64,000 nucleotides of DNA from Caldisericaceae bacterium (GTDB lineage: Bacteria; Caldisericota; Caldisericia; Caldisericales; Caldisericaceae). Each line of letters begins with the position of its first letter. Position 1 is the stretch's first letter. Position numbers and translations under genes: made by a program. The DNA lies in contig JALVXB010000021.1 in the NCBI GenBank assembly GCA_027023025.1, positions 1 to 64,000 on the forward strand, in the 5' to 3' direction. The notes beneath the pieces are model-generated. The model was not told the origin of the DNA, searched no databases, and saw nothing but the letters and a program-made list of their open reading frames with translations. Shown here piece after piece: positions 34,491-44,685 of the stretch.

Positions 34491-34534
34491 TTTGCAAAAA
34501 TTTATACAGCAGTTAAAATTGCTTGGAGGAAAAA

Positions 34535-35632
34535 ATGAAAAATATAATTCTTGATTACGACGATTACAAGGTGTTAATACCTAAAAAACCAGATCTCAAG
34601 AAGCTTTATGTGGAGATTACAAATCTGTGTAATTTGAATTGTAAGATGTGTTTCAGGCGGTTCTGGAAAGACAAATTAGGAGAGATGAGTTTTGAGAACT
34701 TTAAAAAAATTTTTGTACAATTGAATGACTTTCCAGATTTGAAAACGATTTATCTTGGCGGCATCGGAGAACCTACGATACATCCAGACTTCCTGAAGAT
34801 TGCAAGCATGGTTAAAAATGCAGGATACAGACTGGAATTTGGGAGTAACGGTACAAAACTTGCAGAAATGGCCGACGACTTAATTAATCTTGGAGTCGAC
34901 AAAGTTATGGTTTCTATCGATGCACCTGATCCTGCAATATATAGAGACATCAGAGGAACTGATTTTATGAGTGTTGAAGAAAATGTTATGCGCTTACAGG
35001 AGCGGAAAAAGGCGTTAGGAAAGTACCTCCCGGAGATAGGCATTGAGGTCGTCATAATGAAGAGCAATGTTCACCTGCTTCACGGTATTCTTCCGCTTGC
35101 ACACAAATTGGGCGTAAATCACATTTTATTTTCAAACTTAATGCCTTTCAGCAAGCAATTGTCAAAAGAAATTATATACGACGGTTCTGTAGATTACGAA
35201 TTGCTCGTAGATTCACTTAATGCAGATATCGGAAAGTATAAAGTAAAACTGCAATTTCCTAAATTTAATTTGCAAACAGATCGCGTGTGCCAGTTTATAG
35301 AAAACAAGTCTGCCGTAATCAGATGGGATGGAGAAGTTGCCCCCTGTTATAGATTTTTGCACAGCTACACCGAGTATATATACGGAAGAGAAAAAGATGT
35401 TAATTCGTATTCGTTTGGAAATGTTTTTGAAAAGAAATTGCTCGACATCTGGACGAGCAGGGAATACGAATCTTTCAGATATAGAGTGAAAAATGCAATT
35501 TACCCATCCTGTACGGATTGCTCTTTGAGAGATTACTGCGACTTCACAAAGAATACAGATCTGGATTGCTGGGGAAATAATCCTTCCTGTGGGGATTGTT
35601 TATGGGCAAGAGACCTTATTCAGTGCCCGTAA
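34535..35632 (+). CDS. Radical SAM/SPASM protein, candidate tungsten-oxidoreductase maturase
   Basis: Radical SAM enzyme of 365 residues. The 4Fe-4S/SAM motif is VEITNLCNLNCKMCFRRFW near residue 30, then the GG-like LGGIGEPTIHPDF. The C-terminal SPASM/twitch part has many Cys, including CYRFLH, then CTDCSLRDYCDF and finally CWGNNPSCGDCLWARDLIQCP. That last ending resembles proteins annotated as tungsten cofactor oxidoreductase radical SAM maturases. The convergent MoaD gene and the MoeA genes beyond it support a W/Mo role, but no aldehyde:ferredoxin oxidoreductase gene is in the window. The track start is TTG 34523; GGAGG selects ATG 34535. Confidence 0.8.
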   Translation: MKNIILDYDDYKVLIPKKPDLKKLYVEITNLCNLNCKMCFRRFWKDKLGEMSFENFKKIFVQLNDFPDLKTIYLGGIGEPTIHPDFLKIASMVKNAGYRLEFGSNGTKLAEMADDLINLGVDKVMVSIDAPDPAIYRDIRGTDFMSVEENVMRLQERKKALGKYLPEIGIEVVIMKSNVHLLHGILPLAHKLGVNHILFSNLMPFSKQLSKEIIYDGSVDYELLVDSLNADIGKYKVKLQFPKFNLQTDRVCQFIENKSAVIRWDGEVAPCYRFLHSYTEYIYGREKDVNSYSFGNVFEKKLLDIWTSREYESFRYRVKNAIYPSCTDCSLRDYCDFTKNTDLDCWGNNPSCGDCLWARDLIQCP

Positions 35633-35642
35633 GTTGAGAAAC

Positions 35643-35918
35643 TTATCCGCCCCCGACTGGTGGAAAAATAGTAAGTTTGTCTCCTTCTTTTAAGGGTGTG
35701 TCTTTCTTTTGCAAAAAAACGATGTTGCGTCCATTTACGAGATATATGTAGTCGTCTTTTAATTCTCCATTCTCTCCGATTATTACATTGGATAATTCAG
35801 GATAAAGTTTTATAAGATTATCTATTGCTTCTTTTACGGTTTTTGCTTCTATGAAAACTGTGTCTTTACCAATTATTTCTTTCAGTGTTGCATACAATTT
35901 TACTTTTACTTTTCCCAT
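35643..35918 (-). CDS. MoaD/ThiS-family sulfur-carrier protein
   Basis: Ubiquitin-fold sulfur carrier, 91 residues, ending FPPVGGG, so the C-terminal Gly-Gly needed for adenylation and thiocarboxylation is present. KVKVKLYATLKEIIGKDTVFIEA and PLKEGDKLTIFPPV are typical MoaD strands. It most likely supplies sulfur for molybdopterin dithiolene formation; a dedicated role for tungsten cofactor is possible given the neighbours. The track starts at GTG 35927, but AGGTGG points to ATG 35918. It is last in the long minus-strand unit, and its stop is 10 bp from the convergent radical SAM stop. Confidence 0.88.
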   Translation of the reverse strand: MGKVKVKLYATLKEIIGKDTVFIEAKTVKEAIDNLIKLYPELSNVIIGENGELKDDYIYLVNGRNIVFLQKKDTPLKEGDKLTIFPPVGGG

Positions 35919-35927
35919 TTTAACCAC

Positions 35928-37070
35928 CTATATCAACATTATAAGGATTCCAGAAAGAAGTGCAATTGCGCCCCCAAAGTAAAATGGTGCACTTGGAGCG
36001 ATATATTGATACAAAACGCCTGCTATTATAGAAGCAGGAAGCGCCATAATCCCTACTCCGAAACTGTAAATTCCATATGCAGTGCCTCTTGAACTTTGCT
36101 CAGGAACAAGGTCTGATACAAAAGCCTTTTGTGCACCTTCGGCAAAAGCATAATAGATTCCATACAGTGGATAAATTACAAAGAGTAAAGAGGGAGATTT
36201 TGTTAAAGCAAATCCTAAGTAACTTAAAGCATAGAGCATATATCCTATAACAATAGTTCTTTTTCTTCCGATTTTATCTGATAATGCCCCGAGGGGTGTA
36301 GAAAGTAGCCCATAAACAATGCTGTGGAGAAACCAGAGGAGAAGGATCGTCGTTGCAAGTAACCCTAATTTACCTGAATACATAGTAATGAATGCATCAG
36401 AACTGTTTCCTATCGTAAAGAGCATTATAATGATAATGTAAAAATAGAATCTCTTTCCAAGGCTAAATTTTGACTTTGCACGCTTCTTCTTTACAAAGCT
36501 CTTAAATTCTTTTTCCTTTACGAGCAGAATCAGAGTAACTGCAATAAATGCTGGAATAAGTGCTGCTTTAAACACGGCATTGTAGTTTGTTTTGCCAAAT
36601 TTGTCCAGTACCCATATACCGAGAAGAGGTCCTACTGCAGCACCCAGAGTATCCAGTGCGCGGTGAAAACCAAAGTATAGCCCTCTATTCTTTTCGTTCG
36701 TATACGAGGAAATAAGAGCATCTCTTGGGGCAGTCCTGATTCCTTTTCCTACTCGCTCGAGCGCGCGTATCCATAGAACTGCAACTGGCGTGCGGACGAA
36801 CGGCAAAAAACACTTCGTAACCGTCGACTCAAAGTAGCCCAGGAAAGCAAACCACTTTCTGCTGCCCATTCTGTCTGAAAAGTACCCAAAGAAAATTTTA
36901 AGAAGAGAAGCTGTACTCTCTGCTATACCTTCTATTACTCCTATAAATGCTCCGCCTGCACCTATGGATTCTAAAAATAGCGGGAGGACTTTAACGATCA
37001 TCTCAGAGGAAACATCGTTAAAGAAACTAACAAACCCAAGAATAATAACATTCCTATTGAGTTTTATCAT
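35928..37070 (-). CDS. MFS transporter in a molybdenum-cofactor gene unit
   Basis: Major facilitator of 380 residues with 11-12 helices. Intracellular loop 2-3 reads YFSDRMGSRKWFAFLGY, and loop 8-9 has the matching GALSDKIGRKRTIVIGY, both diagnostic. RVGKGIRTAPRDALIS is a conserved segment seen in a widespread bacterial MFS subgroup. The substrate is unknown; placement between a moeA fusion and moaD hints at cofactor-related export or uptake, which is speculation. It overlaps the upstream gene by 17 bp and leaves a 9-bp gap to moaD. Confidence 0.85.
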   Translation of the reverse strand: MIKLNRNVIILGFVSFFNDVSSEMIVKVLPLFLESIGAGGAFIGVIEGIAESTASLLKIFFGYFSDRMGSRKWFAFLGYFESTVTKCFLPFVRTPVAVLWIRALERVGKGIRTAPRDALISSYTNEKNRGLYFGFHRALDTLGAAVGPLLGIWVLDKFGKTNYNAVFKAALIPAFIAVTLILLVKEKEFKSFVKKKRAKSKFSLGKRFYFYIIIIMLFTIGNSSDAFITMYSGKLGLLATTILLLWFLHSIVYGLLSTPLGALSDKIGRKRTIVIGYMLYALSYLGFALTKSPSLLFVIYPLYGIYYAFAEGAQKAFVSDLVPEQSSRGTAYGIYSFGVGIMALPASIIAGVLYQYIAPSAPFYFGGAIALLSGILIMLI

Positions 37071-38970
37071 CTACTACCCCTATGTACTTGTATCCTGAAA
37101 ATTCTTTTGCAATTTTAACGAATTCTGGATCTTGCAAGAAGTCTAAAACAAATCTTACTTCCTTTCTTTTTAAATCATTTTTTAAGATAACGAGATCGTA
37201 CTGCTCTTCTTTTACTGGAATAAAGTCAAGGCCGAGAGCATCTGCAACATACTTTATTCCAATCCCACAGTCTGCACCACCTAACTTTACATTGTTTGCT
37301 ACTGCAAGATGGGTAAACTCCTCGTGTTCGTATCCATTTATAGACTCAGGGCTAATACCGTTTTTTGGGAGCAGATAATCCGTAATCACTCTTGTGCCAG
37401 AACCCCTTTGCCTATTTACAAATGTAATGTCTGGACGGGCAATGTCGCAGATTGTGCGAATGTTTTTCGGGTTTCCTTTTTGAACGATAATACCCTGGCT
37501 TCTCAAAGAAAAGTGCACGAGAACAAACTCTTTTTTAAGATACTTATTAAGAAAAGGTATGTTGTACACCTCACTTTTTTCGTCAAATAAGTGTGCTGCT
37601 GTAATACTGCACTCGCTTCGCGACATAGCAAGTAAACCGCCTAGGCTTCCACTGTTAATAATTCCTATGTTGAATGAAGGCACTTTCTTTTTTATAAAGG
37701 AAAAGTATCTGATAAGCAGAGGATCATTGCTGCCTATAAAAAGAATCTGGTTTCTAATGTCTCTGCTATCCTTAAGCATTTCTATGTCTACCCTGCTATT
37801 TGTTTCTATACCCTCGCTGTCGAAAGGGATTTTTAGCAATCCGTCCGCATTTGAAACAGAGGATAAAACACCAGCACCTTTTTTGAGGGGGACGGCCACG
37901 ATTTTATTCTCTACATTGCCTAATTTTACGCGAATAAATTCTGTAACGCCTATCTTAGATGTGATAGGTCTGCGTACAACTGCTTTCATTTTTTTTGTTT
38001 GCGGCACATTTCTGCCCTGCATTTTGTAAAGCGCATATTTTAGAAATATGTGTGAGATAATAAAAGAAGAGACGGGGAAGCCAGGCATTCCAATTGCAGG
38101 CTTTCCGTTAATTGTGCCAAGAATTACAGGTTTTCCTGGTTGAACCGAAATTCCGTGGACGCGAATTTTTCCCATATCTTTTATTACACTTGCCGTTAAG
38201 TCTTTTGTTCCCTTAGCAGAGCCGCCTATAATAATAACGATATCTACATCGTTAATTTTACTTTCAATAAAAGCTTTGATTTTCTGCTCGTCGTTAGGAA
38301 GAATTTCAGAAATAAGTGGGATTGCGTTTGCTTCCTTTACAAATGATGCAATCATATACGAATTCGTATCTACGATGTTTCCTATCTTCAGTGCTTCTCC
38401 AGGTTTTTTAATTTCTTCTCCTGTGGGAACGATAAGCACTTTAAGTTTTCTGTGTACCTTTATTTTTGCGATCCCCCCTGCAAGCAGTACGCCTATGTGT
38501 GCATTTGTGATTACTTCGTTAGGATATATAAGCGGCTCTTTTATGCCGATGTCTTCACCGATAAGGCGGACATTTTTATACGGAGAAATAGACTCAAGAA
38601 TGCGAAATTTGTTATCTTTAATTTCTACATCTTCAATCATAATTACGGCATTAAAACCTTTTGGCATTGGGTCGCCGGTGTTTACGCATATTCCCTCTTT
38701 TCCTAATTCCAGAATTTTTGGCGTGCTCAGTGAAGCACCGTTTGTAATGCGGGCATCTACCGCAATGCCGTCAACTGCAGACGCCGTATAAAATGGGGAG
38801 GATTGTTTAGAATAAACCGTTTCAAAAGCGATTCTGCCGAGTGCGTCCTTAACAGGTATAACTTCTGGTTCAAGATTTAGCGGATAATTAGATTTGTCTA
38901 AAATGTTTTTCCAGATTCGTTTTGCCTGTGTAAGGTTCTTCTTGTTAAGGAATATTTCGCGTTTTACCAT
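37054..38970 (-). CDS. MoeA fused to a periplasmic-binding-protein-like domain
   Basis: A 638-residue fusion. Residues 1 to about 400 are MoeA, the molybdotransferase inserting metal into adenylylated molybdopterin: FYTASAVDGIAVDA, IMIEDVEI, GDPMPKG, VIIIGGSAKGTKDL and PVILGTINGKPAIGMPGFPVS. Residues about 405-630 are a soluble binding-protein-like domain (ILFIGSNDPLLIRYF...SLGGLLAMSRSECSITAAHLFD, FVNRQRGSGTRVITDYLL). This architecture is known in archaea and some anaerobes. The extra domain may sense or hold an oxyanion or cofactor intermediate. It overlaps moeA by 7 bp. Two MoeA proteins side by side may divide Mo and W insertion, which is inference. Confidence 0.9.
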   Translation of the reverse strand: MVKREIFLNKKNLTQAKRIWKNILDKSNYPLNLEPEVIPVKDALGRIAFETVYSKQSSPFYTASAVDGIAVDARITNGASLSTPKILELGKEGICVNTGDPMPKGFNAVIMIEDVEIKDNKFRILESISPYKNVRLIGEDIGIKEPLIYPNEVITNAHIGVLLAGGIAKIKVHRKLKVLIVPTGEEIKKPGEALKIGNIVDTNSYMIASFVKEANAIPLISEILPNDEQKIKAFIESKINDVDIVIIIGGSAKGTKDLTASVIKDMGKIRVHGISVQPGKPVILGTINGKPAIGMPGFPVSSFIISHIFLKYALYKMQGRNVPQTKKMKAVVRRPITSKIGVTEFIRVKLGNVENKIVAVPLKKGAGVLSSVSNADGLLKIPFDSEGIETNSRVDIEMLKDSRDIRNQILFIGSNDPLLIRYFSFIKKKVPSFNIGIINSGSLGGLLAMSRSECSITAAHLFDEKSEVYNIPFLNKYLKKEFVLVHFSLRSQGIIVQKGNPKNIRTICDIARPDITFVNRQRGSGTRVITDYLLPKNGISPESINGYEHEEFTHLAVANNVKLGGADCGIGIKYVADALGLDFIPVKEEQYDLVILKNDLKRKEVRFVLDFLQDPEFVKIAKEFSGYKYIGVVDDKTQ

Positions 38971-40190
38971 AAGATTACCTCCACCTTCCCCCCTTTTGTT
39001 AATCCCTCGCTCATAAGCGGAATCATAATTATTCCTGAACCATCAATAAAAACACTAATAAATGCAGATTCTGAGAAAATAGGCTCTGCAAAAAATTCGT
39101 TATTTCTTTTTATTAACCTTACTACTATAAATTCCTCCCTGCCTTTCCTTGATGGTACATTCGCGTTAAGAGTAGCAAATACAGTGTACTTTTTGAGTTT
39201 TAAGCCAATTTTTTTTGCAATTAAAGGGACAACCACATACTTAAAAACGAGAAAAGAAGCCAGCGGGTTGCCCGACAGCCCCACGATTAACTTTTGATTT
39301 ACTACTCCAAAAACGGTAGGCTTTCCAGGTGAAAGGTGGAGTCCGTGAATGAGCACGCCAGGTTTTCCTGCTTTATTTATTACGCTAACCGTAAAGTCAA
39401 AACTGCCTTTACTCGTTCCTCCGCTCATAATCACGATATCATTTTCTGAAAGGGCTTTGTTCAGGGCTTTCTGGAGTTCGCCTTTGCTGTCTTTTACAAT
39501 ACCGTAGAATTTAGGAGAAAATATTGCAGAGTTGAGTGCTTCTGAAAAGACGGCATATCCATTAATGTCGTATATTTTGCCAGTTTTGAGCGGGCCACTA
39601 TCCACGAGTTCGTCTCCTGTTGAAATAATCCCAATCGATATTTTATTAAAGACTTCTACTTCCGTTAAGCCAAACCCTCTTAAAAGTACTACTTTTTGAG
39701 GCGTTATCCGGTCGCCTTTTTTCAGTATTACTGCGTCTTTTTTGATGTCTTCGCCCACTTCAATGAGATTTTCGTGTGGGGAAACGGAACGGAAAACAAA
39801 AACTTCGTTTTTTTGAACTTGTGTATGTTCGATCATTACGAGGCTGTCAGCGCCATCAGGCACCACTCCTCCGGTTGGAACATACACAGTTTCCCCTCTC
39901 TTTAGCTTCTCTTTGCAGGATTCTCCGATTTTTAGCGTAGAAATCAGGCGTAAAGGAACCGGGTTTGAGGGAGATGCGCCTAAGACATCTTTTGAGTGAA
40001 CCGCAAAACCGTCTACGAGCGATTTTCTAAAAGACGGTATGGAAAAAGCTGCTTTATAATCTATTGCGGAAAATTGATTTACTGCATCCTGAATTGAACA
40101 AGTTTCCTTACCAATATTAACTGAGAATTTATCTAATAGTATTTTTTCTAAGTCAGAGCGCTTTTTTACCTTGAGGTATTTTTTATCCAT
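38964..40190 (-). CDS. moeA: Molybdopterin molybdotransferase MoeA
   Basis: Canonical-length MoeA, 408 residues. Domain order matches the family: an N-terminal region with PSFRKSLVDGFAVHSKDV, an extended beta domain with GETVYVPTGGVVPDGADSLVMIEH, the MoCF-binding domain (IGIISTGDELVD, then NDIVIMSGGTSKGSFDFT), GKPTVFGVVNQKLIVGLSGNPLAS, and a C-terminal beta barrel. It catalyses metal insertion into MPT-AMP. It overlaps etfA by 25 bp and the MoeA fusion by 7 bp. Sequence divergence between the two MoeA copies shows they are not a recent duplication. Confidence 0.93.
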   Translation of the reverse strand: MDKKYLKVKKRSDLEKILLDKFSVNIGKETCSIQDAVNQFSAIDYKAAFSIPSFRKSLVDGFAVHSKDVLGASPSNPVPLRLISTLKIGESCKEKLKRGETVYVPTGGVVPDGADSLVMIEHTQVQKNEVFVFRSVSPHENLIEVGEDIKKDAVILKKGDRITPQKVVLLRGFGLTEVEVFNKISIGIISTGDELVDSGPLKTGKIYDINGYAVFSEALNSAIFSPKFYGIVKDSKGELQKALNKALSENDIVIMSGGTSKGSFDFTVSVINKAGKPGVLIHGLHLSPGKPTVFGVVNQKLIVGLSGNPLASFLVFKYVVVPLIAKKIGLKLKKYTVFATLNANVPSRKGREEFIVVRLIKRNNEFFAEPIFSESAFISVFIDGSGIIMIPLMSEGLTKGGKVEVILW

Positions 40191-41029
40191 TGTTCAATTT
40201 CTGGCAGAGCATCCTCTACTTTTGCGTTTATGGGAAGCGTGCACTTTGCAAAAATCGGAGCTGATGGGTCTGAGTTTACAGCGATCACATACTTTGCATT
40301 TACGCCTGATAGGTGTTGTATTGCCCCAGAAATGCCCAGCGCTATGTAAATTTCCGGGCTGATAGATATGCCAGAATCGCCAATTACTCTATTCAGGGGC
40401 AATAGTCCCGTATCGGCAACAGGTCTCGTGCAGCCAATTTCTGCGTTTAACTCCTTTGCAAGGTGCTCTATTTTTGGTATTTGCGACTTTTTTACGCCCC
40501 TGCCTATGCCGATTACGATGCGCGCATTTTGAAGAGGATTTGTTTCTTTTTCACTTCTTTCAATTAAATGCACATCGTCTGAACGGCAAACTTCTATCAT
40601 TTTGGGTTCGGATTTACTACGATATTCAACGCTTTCATTGCTTTTTAAAATCATAAGTGCTGGCCTGGAAGTTGCGTAAACTTCTGCTTCTAAGTTTTCC
40701 CACCCAGGAACGAGTCCTATGATTTTATCGTCTTTTATGTATATTCTCGTGCTGTGTGAAATAAGGCCGAGTTGCTTTTTGCCTGCAAAGTATGCAGCAG
40801 ATTCTCTAATTAGTGTTTCGTCAGCAAATATTATAAGGTCTGCGTCTACTTCTTTTGATACATCATTTATAAATTTGTAGCCTTCAATTGGTGTCTGTAT
40901 GTCCAGTGACGGAATAAAATTTGCACAGTCTTCGCACTTCGAGAAAGAAGCAGTAACGACATCGTTAGAAATAGATTTTGCACTTTCTATTACGCCGTTA
41001 TTTTTATTAAAGAATACCAATATTTTCAT
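40166..41029 (-). CDS. etfA: Electron transfer flavoprotein, alpha subunit
   Basis: ETF alpha, 287 residues. The C-terminal FAD-binding signature is intact: IGCTRPVADTGLLPLNRVIGDSG, SPEIYIALGISGAIQHLSGV, AVNSDPSAPIFAKC. The N-terminal half is the adenine-nucleotide alpha-hydrolase-like domain. It pairs with EtfB encoded just upstream with a 4-bp overlap. No acyl-CoA dehydrogenase, ETF-quinone oxidoreductase or FixC/X is adjacent; instead the next gene is moeA, which is unusual. Whether this ETF bifurcates electrons cannot be judged by eye. The 25-bp overlap with moeA implies coupled translation. Confidence 0.92.
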   Translation of the reverse strand: MKILVFFNKNNGVIESAKSISNDVVTASFSKCEDCANFIPSLDIQTPIEGYKFINDVSKEVDADLIIFADETLIRESAAYFAGKKQLGLISHSTRIYIKDDKIIGLVPGWENLEAEVYATSRPALMILKSNESVEYRSKSEPKMIEVCRSDDVHLIERSEKETNPLQNARIVIGIGRGVKKSQIPKIEHLAKELNAEIGCTRPVADTGLLPLNRVIGDSGISISPEIYIALGISGAIQHLSGVNAKYVIAVNSDPSAPIFAKCTLPINAKVEDALPEIEQWIKNTSR

Positions 41030-41787
41030 AGCACACCTGCCTTTGAAAGAAGTTCCACAAAGTTCTTTCCTATTTCGGTTGTTACGAGTTTTTCGTTTTG
41101 TTTAATTTCGTTCTGTATTAAGGATAAAACTGCCGTGCGCGCACCTTTCAATCCGCAGAGGCTTTCGTCTAACTGCAATTCAGAATTTGAAAATACTTCG
41201 ACTTTCTTTTGTTCAAAGGTTTTTAACGAGAATAAATTTTCCGAAATCCCGAAGTTTGCAGAGTCACTTATTGAGGCAACAAATTTTCCCTGCATTTTAA
41301 ATGTTTCCTCATTCTGTTCTGTAATTCTTTTTACTTCGTCCTTTCTTATAGAAACAATGTGGCTTAAAAACGGAACGCCAAGGAATGCGGCAATCTCTGC
41401 AGAAGCCTGTCCTGTTGCACCATCCACAGAATAATCGCCAGTAAATACGATGTCGAAGTCTTTTTCGACTTTTTTAATTGCACTTGCAAGAACGAATGCC
41501 GTTGATAGTGTATCTGCCCCTGCAAAAACTTTATCAGAAATAAGGATTACTCTGTCAAACCCAAATTTAAAAAGCGACTTCAAAACAGTTTCTGTGTTTG
41601 GAGGACCCATAGAGATTGCAATAAGATTACTTCCAGGGTTTTCTTCTTTTAGTTTTCTTGCTTCTTCTGCAGCAATTAAATCGGTCGGATTTAGAATGAG
41701 CTTTACATTTGTCCTCTCTATCCTTTTAGTTTCTTTATTGAAAACAATTTTTTCAGGTACAACCTTTACTGTGACGACTAATTTCAT
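41026..41787 (-). CDS. etfB: Electron transfer flavoprotein, beta subunit
   Basis: ETF beta, 253 residues. Recognised by KLVVTVKVVPEK at the start, LNPTDLIAAEEARKLKEE, IAISMGPPNTETVLKSLF, the ligand-binding DIVFTGDYSVDGATGQASAEIAAFLGVPFLS, and the later FKMQGKFVASIS segment. It binds AMP or a second FAD in characterised homologues. It lies between the tandem WecG-like gene (4-bp overlap) and etfA (4-bp overlap). The redox partner is not encoded nearby. Confidence 0.92.
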   Translation of the reverse strand: MKLVVTVKVVPEKIVFNKETKRIERTNVKLILNPTDLIAAEEARKLKEENPGSNLIAISMGPPNTETVLKSLFKFGFDRVILISDKVFAGADTLSTAFVLASAIKKVEKDFDIVFTGDYSVDGATGQASAEIAAFLGVPFLSHIVSIRKDEVKRITEQNEETFKMQGKFVASISDSANFGISENLFSLKTFEQKKVEVFSNSELQLDESLCGLKGARTAVLSLIQNEIKQNEKLVTTEIGKNFVELLSKAGVL

Positions 41788-43235
41788 TTTCCCTCCTCAC
41801 TTTTAAATAACACTTTAAACGCAAACGAAACGATGTGGTGCAGGCGGGCAAAACGCGTTGGCTGGATAATCATCCTGTAGAGCCATTCAAGGCCAATGTT
41901 TTGCACGAACTTCGGAGCGCGTTTTACATGCCCGCTCCAAACATCGAAGGAACCTCCTACTCCAATTGCAACAGGCACATTAAGTTCGTTCTTATGCCTG
42001 GCAATCCATTTTTCCTGTTTTCCTCCGCCCATACCAACGAAAAGTATTTTCGTATGCGTTTCGTTTATTTTATTTATTATTGCAGACTCTTCGCTTTTTT
42101 CAAAATAGCCGCTGTGGCAACCGCTTATCTGTAATTGTGGAAAGCTTTTTTTAATTGTTTCTAATGCTCGTGCCAGAATGCTTTCTTTCGCCCCAAGAAA
42201 GTATACGGGTAGGCTTTTCTTTTCAGCAAGTTTTAACAAGTTCCAGGCAAACTCTATTCCTGGGATTCTGTGTACAATGCGCTTGCCACGCATTTTTGCC
42301 CCCCACACGATTCCAATTCCGTCGGGTATAATGAGGTCTGCGTTTTTCAGTACTGCAAAAAATTCTTTGTCCTGGAATGCTTTTGATGCCATTTCTCCGT
42401 TTAGTGTTACGATGAGGTGCAGTTTACCATCATCCAGAAATTTGTTTACAATTTTAAGATTTTCCTCAAGAGACCTATTAGAAATTCTTACTCCAAATAA
42501 GTCAACCTCTTCTTCAATTTTTTGAGGCATTCGCATCACGAGGAAAATAAATTTAGGAAGGGACATTACACGGGGTAACCTTCTTGGATCTAAAATAAAG
42601 CGGTAGAACCACTCAAGCCCTAATTTTTGGATAACCGAAGGCGCTCTGCTGTATTCGCCTGCAAGCACATTGAAACTGCCACCTACTCCCATTGCAAATT
42701 GCACATTCAAATTTGGAAGATTGTGACAGATAAACTTCTCCTGCTTTGGGCTGCCCATCCCTACAAATAGTAAATCCGCTTTGCTATTTTTTATTTGATT
42801 TACGATTTCTTTTTCGTCTTTAAAATAACCGTTGTGATATCCAGCAATTTTTAGTTTTGGATGGTCCTTTCTAAGGTTTTCAATAGCTTTTTTGAGCGTT
42901 TCTTCTTTTGAGCCAAGTAAAAAAACAGAGTAGCCTTTCCTTTCTGCAATGTTTAACAAATTTAAAAAGAGATCTATTCCCGGTATGCGGCCTTTAAAGC
43001 GTTCTTTATAAAAAATTTTTGACGCCCAGATAACACCTATCCCGTCAACGAAGTTTAAGTCACTTTTTTTGAGTATGGAAAGAAGTTCATCGTCTTTACA
43101 GGCTTTAAGAATTTTTTCGGGGTTAATTGCGACTGCAAAATGAGGTTCATCTTTACTCAGAAATTCTTCGATTCTGTGTAATGCTTCCTCCATAGACAGA
43201 TTGTCTACGGGAATATCTGCAACGAAAATCCTCAT
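41784..43235 (-). CDS. Tandem WecG/TagA/CpsF glycosyltransferase fusion
   Basis: Two complete WecG/TagA (GT26) domains in one 483-residue chain, about residues 1-240 and 243-480. Such enzymes transfer ManNAc or ManNAcA to lipid-linked GlcNAc. Each half has DGIG(V/I)(V/I)W, a HN/HSGYF motif, (L)LFVGMG..KQEK and GVGGSF followed by RAP..(V/I)Q..GLEW.YR. TagA needs a Thr and an Asp. The second half has both (VTLNGE Thr277, PDGIG Asp305). The first half keeps the Asp (Asp64) but has Ala36 where Thr is expected (VAINPEK). The partner UDP-ManNAc dehydrogenase is encoded just upstream with a 4-bp overlap, so the donor is probably UDP-ManNAcA. Confidence 0.9.
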   Translation of the reverse strand: MRIFVADIPVDNLSMEEALHRIEEFLSKDEPHFAVAINPEKILKACKDDELLSILKKSDLNFVDGIGVIWASKIFYKERFKGRIPGIDLFLNLLNIAERKGYSVFLLGSKEETLKKAIENLRKDHPKLKIAGYHNGYFKDEKEIVNQIKNSKADLLFVGMGSPKQEKFICHNLPNLNVQFAMGVGGSFNVLAGEYSRAPSVIQKLGLEWFYRFILDPRRLPRVMSLPKFIFLVMRMPQKIEEEVDLFGVRISNRSLEENLKIVNKFLDDGKLHLIVTLNGEMASKAFQDKEFFAVLKNADLIIPDGIGIVWGAKMRGKRIVHRIPGIEFAWNLLKLAEKKSLPVYFLGAKESILARALETIKKSFPQLQISGCHSGYFEKSEESAIINKINETHTKILFVGMGGGKQEKWIARHKNELNVPVAIGVGGSFDVWSGHVKRAPKFVQNIGLEWLYRMIIQPTRFARLHHIVSFAFKVLFKSEEGK

Positions 43236-44530
43236 ATCGTTAGATAAATCATGCCTTTTGATTCTACATCATCTCTATTTAAGATGCGTCTTGCATCAAA
43301 TACGATACATCCCTTTTTAGCATTATTCGCAATTACTTCTGCGGAAATATTTATATTATCCTGTTTTATAGGAATAATAACGACATCTGCATCTTTTAGC
43401 GCTTCATCAAGGTTGTTCTTTTTTAAAGGAAAATTTCCGCTTACATTGGGATCGAACCACTTAACATTGCCGCCTTTCTGCAGGATGTTGTCTTTCATTT
43501 TTATAGCAGGGCTTTCAGAAATGTCTGAAGAGTTGTCCTTCATCGCAATACCTATTAGTGTAAAAACTGAATTTTCTACTGTTTTCCCAAGATTGTTCAG
43601 CTTACTTTCTATAAGAGAAAGTATTTCTAAAGGCCTGTTGTCGTTAATTTCCCGCGCAGTGTGAAGTAACGGCATAGGTAATTTTATTTCGTCAGATTTA
43701 TCAAATATGTAAAGTGATGAGTAAGGAATACAGTGACCTCCAACGCCCACCCCAGGTGTTAAAAGGTGTACTCTTTTGTGTGTATTTGCGACTTTTATTA
43801 CTTCAAGTACGTCTACATTTAGCCGTTCCGTGAAAGAAGCAAGTTCGTTTGACAGAGCAATGTTTACATCCCTCGAACTGTTTTCAATCAGTTTTGAAAT
43901 TTCCACAACTTCTGGCTCAGACGCTTCGATAATTGGTTCTTTATTGATGATAGATAAAAGACTGACTGCTCGTTTTTTGCTTTTTTCACTTAATGCTCCA
44001 ACTGCAACGGGCATCGTCTGAAACTCCTCGAACGCTCTTCCTTCTGCAATACGCTCTGAAGAATAAGCAAGATAAAAATCTTTGCAGCAAATAAGTCCGC
44101 TTTCCTTCTCAAGAATAGGCTTTACCACATTCCTTGTTGTTCCGGGAGGGACAGTAGAGCGAATTAAAACGAGGTCACCCTTTTTGAGAAATTTTCCAAT
44201 AGAGTGAATTGCATTGCTGAATACTTCTTTTTTTAATGTACCATTCTCTATAGGTATCCCGACTGTTACTATAATGTCACGGGCATTTTTAAGTGCTGTT
44301 TCCGTTTTTGTTGTTGGGACAAACAATCCTTTTTCGATTGAGTCCTTCAATATATCTTCAATAGTTTTTCCTTTATAATTTTCCAATACATGTGTTTTGT
44401 AATGCTTTAAGTTTTCGATGTACTGCTCGTTTATATCTACCCCGTAGACTTTCACGCCGAAAAGTGTATAAGTTAAAGAAAGTGGCAGGCCTACAAATCC
44501 TAAACCAAAAACTGCTATGCTGTTTTCCAT
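43232..44530 (-). CDS. wecC: UDP-N-acetyl-D-mannosamine dehydrogenase
   Basis: UDP-glucose/GDP-mannose dehydrogenase family, 432 residues. The NAD Rossmann motif is AVFGLGFVGLPLSLTYTLFG, and VTVGIPIENGTLKK fits the WecC branch. LIRSTVPPGTTRNVV precedes the active-site Cys in TPGVGVGGHCIP. The C-terminal domain runs from FTLIGIAMKDNSSDISESPAIKM to the end. It oxidises UDP-ManNAc to UDP-ManNAcA for a surface glycan. GGAGG precedes ATG 44530, and a good promoter lies 28-55 bp upstream. It is the first protein gene of the eight-gene minus-strand unit. UDP-GlcNAc or UDP-GalNAc dehydrogenase activity is an alternative. Confidence 0.88.
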   Translation of the reverse strand: MENSIAVFGLGFVGLPLSLTYTLFGVKVYGVDINEQYIENLKHYKTHVLENYKGKTIEDILKDSIEKGLFVPTTKTETALKNARDIIVTVGIPIENGTLKKEVFSNAIHSIGKFLKKGDLVLIRSTVPPGTTRNVVKPILEKESGLICCKDFYLAYSSERIAEGRAFEEFQTMPVAVGALSEKSKKRAVSLLSIINKEPIIEASEPEVVEISKLIENSSRDVNIALSNELASFTERLNVDVLEVIKVANTHKRVHLLTPGVGVGGHCIPYSSLYIFDKSDEIKLPMPLLHTAREINDNRPLEILSLIESKLNNLGKTVENSVFTLIGIAMKDNSSDISESPAIKMKDNILQKGGNVKWFDPNVSGNFPLKKNNLDEALKDADVVIIPIKQDNINISAEVIANNAKKGCIVFDARRILNRDDVESKGMIYLTI

Positions 44531-44594: not shown

Positions 44595-44685
44595 TGGCGG
44601 AGAGAGTGGGATTCGAACCCACGGCAGGCTTTTGACCCGCACACGCTCTCCAGGCGTGCACCTTCAACCGCTCGGTCATCTCTCC
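44595..44685 (-). tRNA. tRNA-Ser (anticodon GGA)
   Basis: Class II tRNA of 91 nt with encoded CCA (44595-44597). The acceptor stem GGAGAGA pairs with TCTCTCC, discriminator G73. The anticodon loop CTGGAGA is on stem CACGC/GCGTG, there is a long variable arm (TGCGGGTC...GCC region), and the T arm is GTGGG-TTCGAAT-CCCAC. Confidence 0.96.

Follow-up and report, generated by a model that had tools for sequence, protein, structure and literature searches.

The electron-bifurcating electron-transfer flavoproteins (ETFs) Bcd-EtfAB of C. difficile (5ol2), Ldh-EtfAB of A. woodii (7qh2), CarDE (6fah), and EtfAB of A. fermentans (4kpu) are the best profile matches to an EtfAB pair encoded in the first 64,000 nucleotides (hereinafter referred to as the window) of contig JALVXB010000021.1 from a Caldisericaceae bacterium. 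Caldisericaceae is a heat-loving bacterial family of the phylum Caldisericota. In the window, the two ETF genes belong to a run of eight genes (wecC, tandem wecG, etfB, etfA, moeA, moeA-PBP, MFS, and moaD) on the minus strand, from 44530 to 35643. Bifurcation is marked in EtfB by DGDTAQVGP (b-FAD), RXFXG (NAD), and SPT (arm) and in EtfA by R205, and the R205A exchange in EtfA abolished bifurcation in Ldh-EtfAB of A. woodii (PMC9232219). Like the bifurcating ETFs, the window EtfA retains the alpha-FAD motif GISGAIQH; unlike them, it lacks the arginine, the DGDTAQVGP, SPT, and partly the RXFXG motifs of its EtfB are degraded, and etfBA is linked to moeA instead of to a dehydrogenase gene of its own. 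The EtfAB of acryloyl-CoA reductase (C. propionicum type) was the second-best NCBIfam model for both window subunits, but all scores were far below the equivalog cut-offs, and the dehydrogenase and the ETF are encoded in separate operons here. The ETFs of C. propionicum are related to bifurcating ETFs but reported not to bifurcate (PMC9232219).

The distal genes resemble two other known arrangements. As in the paired insertases MoeA/MoeA-PBP (PRK14498 type), the two window genes are adjacent, with full MoeA domains and with moeA-PBP over the cut-off; the difference is that etfBA precedes and overlaps moeA. Genes for WorX and a radical SAM maturase are found at tungsten oxidoreductases (PMC13328260, TIGR04317), and moaD and a maturase gene likewise lie side by side in the window, whereas the genes of tungsten-type aldehyde oxidoreductase (AOR) are on other contigs. 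A search of the available literature found no paper describing etfB and moeA in one gene cluster.

On balance, the run is somewhat better explained than not as a composite operon produced by shuffling, in which an etfBA-moeA core carries a tail of cofactor genes and was joined by rearranged glycan genes, and in which EtfAB would be a non-bifurcating carrier. Operon shuffling together with co-expression is the best reading of the eight-gene mixture, in preference to one pathway. The genes are as follows, in the order of reading.

43232..44530, minus strand, wecC-like nucleotide-sugar (UDP-N-acetylmannosamine-type) dehydrogenase, 432 amino acids (TIGR03026, 326 bits, over cut-off)
41784..43235, minus strand, tandem WecG/TagA/CpsF glycosyltransferase (WecGG; glycosyltransferase family 26, GT26), 483 amino acids (PF03808 in two stretches)
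41026..41787, minus strand, etfB, ETF beta subunit with eroded b-FAD and SPT motifs, 253 amino acids (PF01012, 99 bits)
40166..41029, minus strand, etfA, ETF alpha subunit with intact FAD domain and without the bifurcation arginine, 287 amino acids (PF00766, 95 bits)
38964..40190, minus strand, moeA, molybdopterin metal insertase, paralogue 1, 408 amino acids (PF03453, PF00994, and PF03454)
37054..38970, minus strand, moeA-PBP, MoeA fused to a PBP-like domain, paralogue 2, 638 amino acids (NF011068/PRK14498, 670 bits against a cut-off of 534; PF12727)
35928..37070, minus strand, putative transporter of the major facilitator superfamily (MFS), 380 amino acids (PF07690)
35643..35918, minus strand, MoaD/ThiS-family sulfur carrier, WorX-like, 91 amino acids (TIGR01687, 81.5 bits, and SAMP1, 76.6 bits, both over cut-off)

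The coordinates, strand, order, and names given to these genes in the initial annotation agreed with the open reading frames (ORFs) and domain matches. Its joint lengths, with overlaps of 4-25 bp at the first six joints and a 9-bp gap before moaD, were obtained again from the ORFs: −4 bp (wecC/wecGG), −4 bp (wecGG/etfB), −4 bp (etfB/etfA), −25 bp (etfA/moeA), −7 bp (moeA/moeA-PBP), −17 bp (moeA-PBP/MFS), and +9 bp (MFS/moaD). Gene spacing alone suggests that one transcript may extend through all eight genes.

The locus was compared among 18 Caldisericaceae genomes from nine genera (g1–g9), including the window's own genome (1.66 Mb, 99.9% complete), in which the window is part of a 115,710-bp contig. 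Gene order was read from a stretch of at most 20 kb surrounding the etf locus of each relative. Contiguous etfB-etfA-moeA was found in g1, g2, g3, g6, g7, and g9, and moeA-PBP lay directly 3' of moeA in all of these except g7, where moeA-PBP and its accompanying MFS gene were found as a pair at a separate place in the genome. The usual continuation of the core was moeA-PBP-MFS-moaD. The overlaps of the window were found again in a metagenome-assembled genome of the same genus (L034), and the etfB/etfA/moeA joints in five other genera were −4/−25, −4/−22, or −4/−19. Across the family loci, the etfB/etfA joint was −4 everywhere except in G008, the etfA/moeA overlap was 19–25 bp (−25, −22, or −19) wherever this pair persisted, and the moeA/moeA-PBP joint was −7 in every case seen. 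The recurrence of these lengths in the same-genus genome and in five other genera makes the run more than a chance arrangement. Further, the joints are near-constant at an EtfB identity to the window protein of about 33–53% outside the genus, and therefore do not merely reflect recent origin. The conservation of order envisaged in the initial annotation thus held for the etfB-etfA-moeA core across the family, with an ETF/moeA joint that is not random, but not for moeA-PBP in g7, and moeA itself was lost from the locus in two genera.

In these two cases (G008 and G004), moeA-type genes with 34–36% identity were located elsewhere in the genome (L114, L115); the distant moeA of G008 adjoined moaA and tungstate-transporter-like genes, and G004 had a single moeA and no detected gene of the dimethyl sulfoxide reductase (DMSOR) family. 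In both, etfBA was still placed behind fmt and followed by moaD or MFS-moaD. The retention of etfBA after the loss of moeA argues that the ETF does not depend on an adjacent moeA.

Upstream of etfB, the context differed among genera. In g3, g4, g6, g7, and g8, etfB followed fmt, which closes the block rho-tdk-prfA-prmC-tsaC-def-fmt. In g9 (G009), whose etfB was recovered as two halves on separate contigs joined by a 55-bp exact overlap, a divergent grpE-dnaK-dnaJ-pyruvate kinase group was located upstream. The wecC-wecGG pair adjoined etfB only in g1, the genus of the window, and in a sister genus, g2; in g6, it was divergent and about 8 kb upstream of the etf locus, across the rho block. The initial annotation had asked whether wecC-wecG is always included; these arrangements show that it is not. 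In the window's genome, the rho-to-fmt block was intact on contig C25, without etf and followed by a polysaccharide pyruvyl transferase gene. Given the differing upstream contexts and the C25 block without etf, the core was transferred as one block, and rearrangement made the glycan genes its neighbours. A simple inversion may have placed wecC-wecGG beside etfB; it would fit the orientation in g6 but requires at least one further rearrangement, because rho-fmt and the etf locus are on different contigs.

Judging from its distribution, the ancestral core most likely stood last in a translation operon of housekeeping genes, behind fmt. In the lineage of the window, it would have been detached at the start of etfB and inserted behind wecC-wecGG, and the surface-glycan genes would now share their reading direction, and probably a transcript, with the core. 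That the etf-moeA link reflects only the shared ancestry of the housekeeping operon, with no value for co-regulation, is unlikely, since the core remained intact after parting from fmt, in two different new contexts. Two results nevertheless speak for shared ancestry alone. The etfB-etfA-moeA module was found solely in Caldisericaceae, and in none of the other families sampled. In addition, a control pair without evident shared pathway, acyl-CoA dehydrogenase and deoxynucleoside kinase, was adjacent in six genera, frequently with an ABC-F-type gene next to it (L125, L116, L117, L118, L119, L114). As an unrelated pair has also long been adjacent in Caldisericaceae, adjacency is weak evidence for shared function.

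The distal half of the run is an ordinary Mo/W (molybdenum/tungsten) cofactor set. MoeA_N, MoCF_biosynth, and MoeA_C domains were all present in both MoeA paralogues, and MoaD matched PF02597 (59 bits) and ends in VGGG, with the C-terminal GG in place. Two MoeA copies have been cited as a sign of organisms with both W and Mo cofactors, and WorX (ThiS-like) and thiF genes, predicted to act in pterin biosynthesis, have been reported beside tungsten oxidoreductases (PMC13328260); the assignment of the distal genes follows from their match to this context and to the two-MoeA pattern. The 3' end of moaD is 10 bp from a convergent gene:

34523..35632, plus strand, radical SAM/SPASM maturase of tungsten-cofactor oxidoreductases (TIGR04317, 460 bits against a cut-off of 380)

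Orthologues of this maturase adjoined AOR genes in six genomes (G003, G007, G009, G011, G013, and G014), and in G009, moeB, moaD, maturase, and AOR formed one cluster. In the window's genome, the maturase gene is parted from the AOR genes, three of which were found (contigs C17, C2, and C29). AOR genes were present in 18 of 18 genomes and one DMSOR-family gene in 15 of 18. MoeA and MoeA-PBP would load Mo or W onto molybdopterin whose synthesis involves MoaD, and the cofactor would serve the AORs, together with the convergent maturase, and the single DMSOR-family enzyme. The ETF-moeA link would then represent co-expression of anaerobic redox functions, not a direct biochemical step.

Pairing of the AOR on C29 with NuoE/F-like subunits was considered and rejected, its neighbours being a ferredoxin-like protein and a GH57 (glycoside hydrolase family 57) enzyme. 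A divergent AOR (586 amino acids) adjoining a ferredoxin-like protein and a GH57 branching-enzyme-like gene was recorded at L056:4142-7915.

The initial annotation had also suggested an ETF-linked Mo/W enzyme. In this form, the ETF would be a dedicated carrier that takes electrons from AOR or from the DMSOR-family enzyme and delivers them to an acyl-CoA dehydrogenase or a different acceptor; moeA would be co-transcribed, so that carrier and cofactor are produced together. The ubiquity of AOR genes in the family and the W-specific maturase flanking the window locus agree with such a carrier, as do the conserved etfA-moeA overlap, the position of etfBA near moaD or MFS-moaD even in the loci that lack moeA, the absence of ETF-quinone oxidoreductase (ETF-QO) from the family, and the case of G013, in which no known ETF partner was detected. 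However, neither an AOR nor a DMSOR gene was found in any Caldisericaceae etf locus examined, and etfBA outlives the locus moeA in G004 and G008, in G004 also without a DMSOR-family gene found. In a 2026 survey of tungsten oxidoreductases that includes gene-neighbourhood data, ETF goes unmentioned, and ferredoxin is given as the electron acceptor of Class I enzymes (PMC13328260). A dedicated Mo/W-enzyme carrier is improbable, and the other suggestion of the initial annotation, reductive metal handling, found no support.

To characterize the ETF itself, the motifs of 11 ETFs of the moeA-locus type were compared with those of eight lactate dehydrogenase (LDH)-type or distant ETFs, of which two were LDH-type ETFs of Caldisericaceae (G011, G002) and the others came from other families (G018, G026, G038, G028, G020, and G033). 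The EtfA arginine at b-FAD N5 (R205 of LctC, in RPAFGGN) was absent from its column in all 11 (VPGW-EN in the window; G004 had an Arg one column before this position) and present in 8/8 of the comparison ETFs. The full DGDTAQVGP was found in none of the 11: the stretch was reduced to DGxT with an altered second half in which VGP was lost (DGATGQASA in the window), although D122, G123, and T125 were invariant. SPT was likewise lost in the 11, being replaced by ART in the window and by SKT, SRT, or SLT in the others, whereas the comparison ETFs retained SPT together with DGETGQVGP, DGDTAQTGP, or a similar b-FAD stretch. The RXFXG region read KVFAG in the window and RAFAG only in G010 and G014; the others began with K, P, L, or M, and g7 lacked the final G, while the Phe of the NAD site was kept in 11/11 EtfB. 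With the bifurcation arginine and the b-FAD and SPT motifs lost, EtfAB should not bifurcate, and the moeA-locus ETF is probably a non-bifurcating, heterodimeric electron carrier that would work through alpha-FAD.

The AlphaFold model of EtfA showed an ETF alpha fold (pLDDT 88.8), and an EtfB profile built from ten sequences gave 148–164 bits for bifurcating ETFs of known structure and 56–79 bits for other ETFs. In a phylogenetic tree rooted at midpoint only and containing no classical non-bifurcating ETFs, a branch with 100/100 support separated the 11 ETFs from the rest. A second ETF of the LDH type, with largely intact bifurcation motifs, was present in G011 and G002 and partially in G001 (L050, L051, L053), and absent from the window's genome. 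Between G001 and G011, EtfB identity was 36% for the moeA-linked type and 75% for the LDH type, a figure that could be too high if the LDH-type genes were transferred laterally. Within the genus, the ratio of nonsynonymous to synonymous substitution rates (dN/dS) was 0.066 for etfB and 0.145 for etfA; the moeA-locus ETF therefore diverges fast, yet purifying selection acts on both genes. The family offers a natural series of ETFs suited to asking which residues make bifurcation work: selection has preserved the carrier fold through the decay of the bifurcation machinery, and intact paralogues exist alongside.

Also unlikely is a history in which a family-wide ETF clade derived from bifurcating ETFs was stripped of its bifurcation site and became the dedicated carrier of a W/Mo enzyme or of cofactor assembly itself, with translational coupling between etfA and moeA. 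Very unlikely is a working bifurcating ETF, linking NADH, ferredoxin, and acyl-CoA dehydrogenase through unusual but functional flavin-binding residues. Its nearest solved relatives are all bifurcating, and the invariant EtfB residues and conserved Phe described above would suit that function, but the arginine is missing throughout, and SPT and VGP, lost here, are kept in paralogues of the same family.

Possible redox partners of the ETF were sought in the genomes. The window's genome contained a single acyl-CoA dehydrogenase gene, whose two parts appear to lie at the ends of contigs C41 and C42; FAD-oxidase_C/GlcD and ETF-QO/FixC were looked for and not found in it, and no ETF-QO was found in any of the 18 genomes. 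Acyl-CoA dehydrogenase was detected in 15/18 genomes and scored best to the acryloyl-CoA reductase AcrC, far below the cut-off. The likeliest partner is this lone, acryloyl-CoA-reductase-like acyl-CoA dehydrogenase, encoded elsewhere in the genome. In a lineage without an obvious quinone or lactate ETF partner, the identity of the redox partner becomes a testable question.

Three observations weigh against a composite operon with such a carrier. No enoyl-CoA hydratase above the cut-off was found in the window's genome, leaving the pathway of the acyl-CoA dehydrogenase unclear. G013 and G010, both good-quality drafts, encode this ETF, but a search with a protein query also gave no acyl-CoA dehydrogenase match in them; this weakens the case for that partner, although the gene may lie in a gap of the drafts or the ETF may have a different partner. 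Moreover, the etfA/moeA joint outlasts upstream change, the cut falling exactly at etfB, as would also be expected if the ETF and the Mo/W cofactor were functionally tied.

Although the genes overlap or nearly touch in two genera, a single pathway of all eight genes joining surface glycan, ETF, and cofactor is scarcely credible and was rejected, as wecC-wecGG lies outside the conserved unit, being divergent and distant in g6, and etfB follows fmt in five genera. For annotation, the run is a patchwork, and functions should not be transferred among wec, etf, and moe genes by adjacency alone.

Promoter and terminator scans of the run gave signals not clearly above those of shuffled sequence. No Moco/W (molybdenum or tungsten cofactor) riboswitch was found upstream of the run, where Rfam matched only the tRNA located immediately upstream of wecC on the same strand as the eight genes:

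44595..44685, minus strand, tRNA-Ser(GGA)

WecGG comprises two complete GT26 copies fused in one protein, a fusion also found in g2 and g6. The Asp of PDG and the Thr of TPN are important in TagA. The second half of WecGG, which matched the TagA structures 7mpk/5wb4, retains both residues, while alignment of the halves showed that the first has the Asp and an Ala in place of the Thr.

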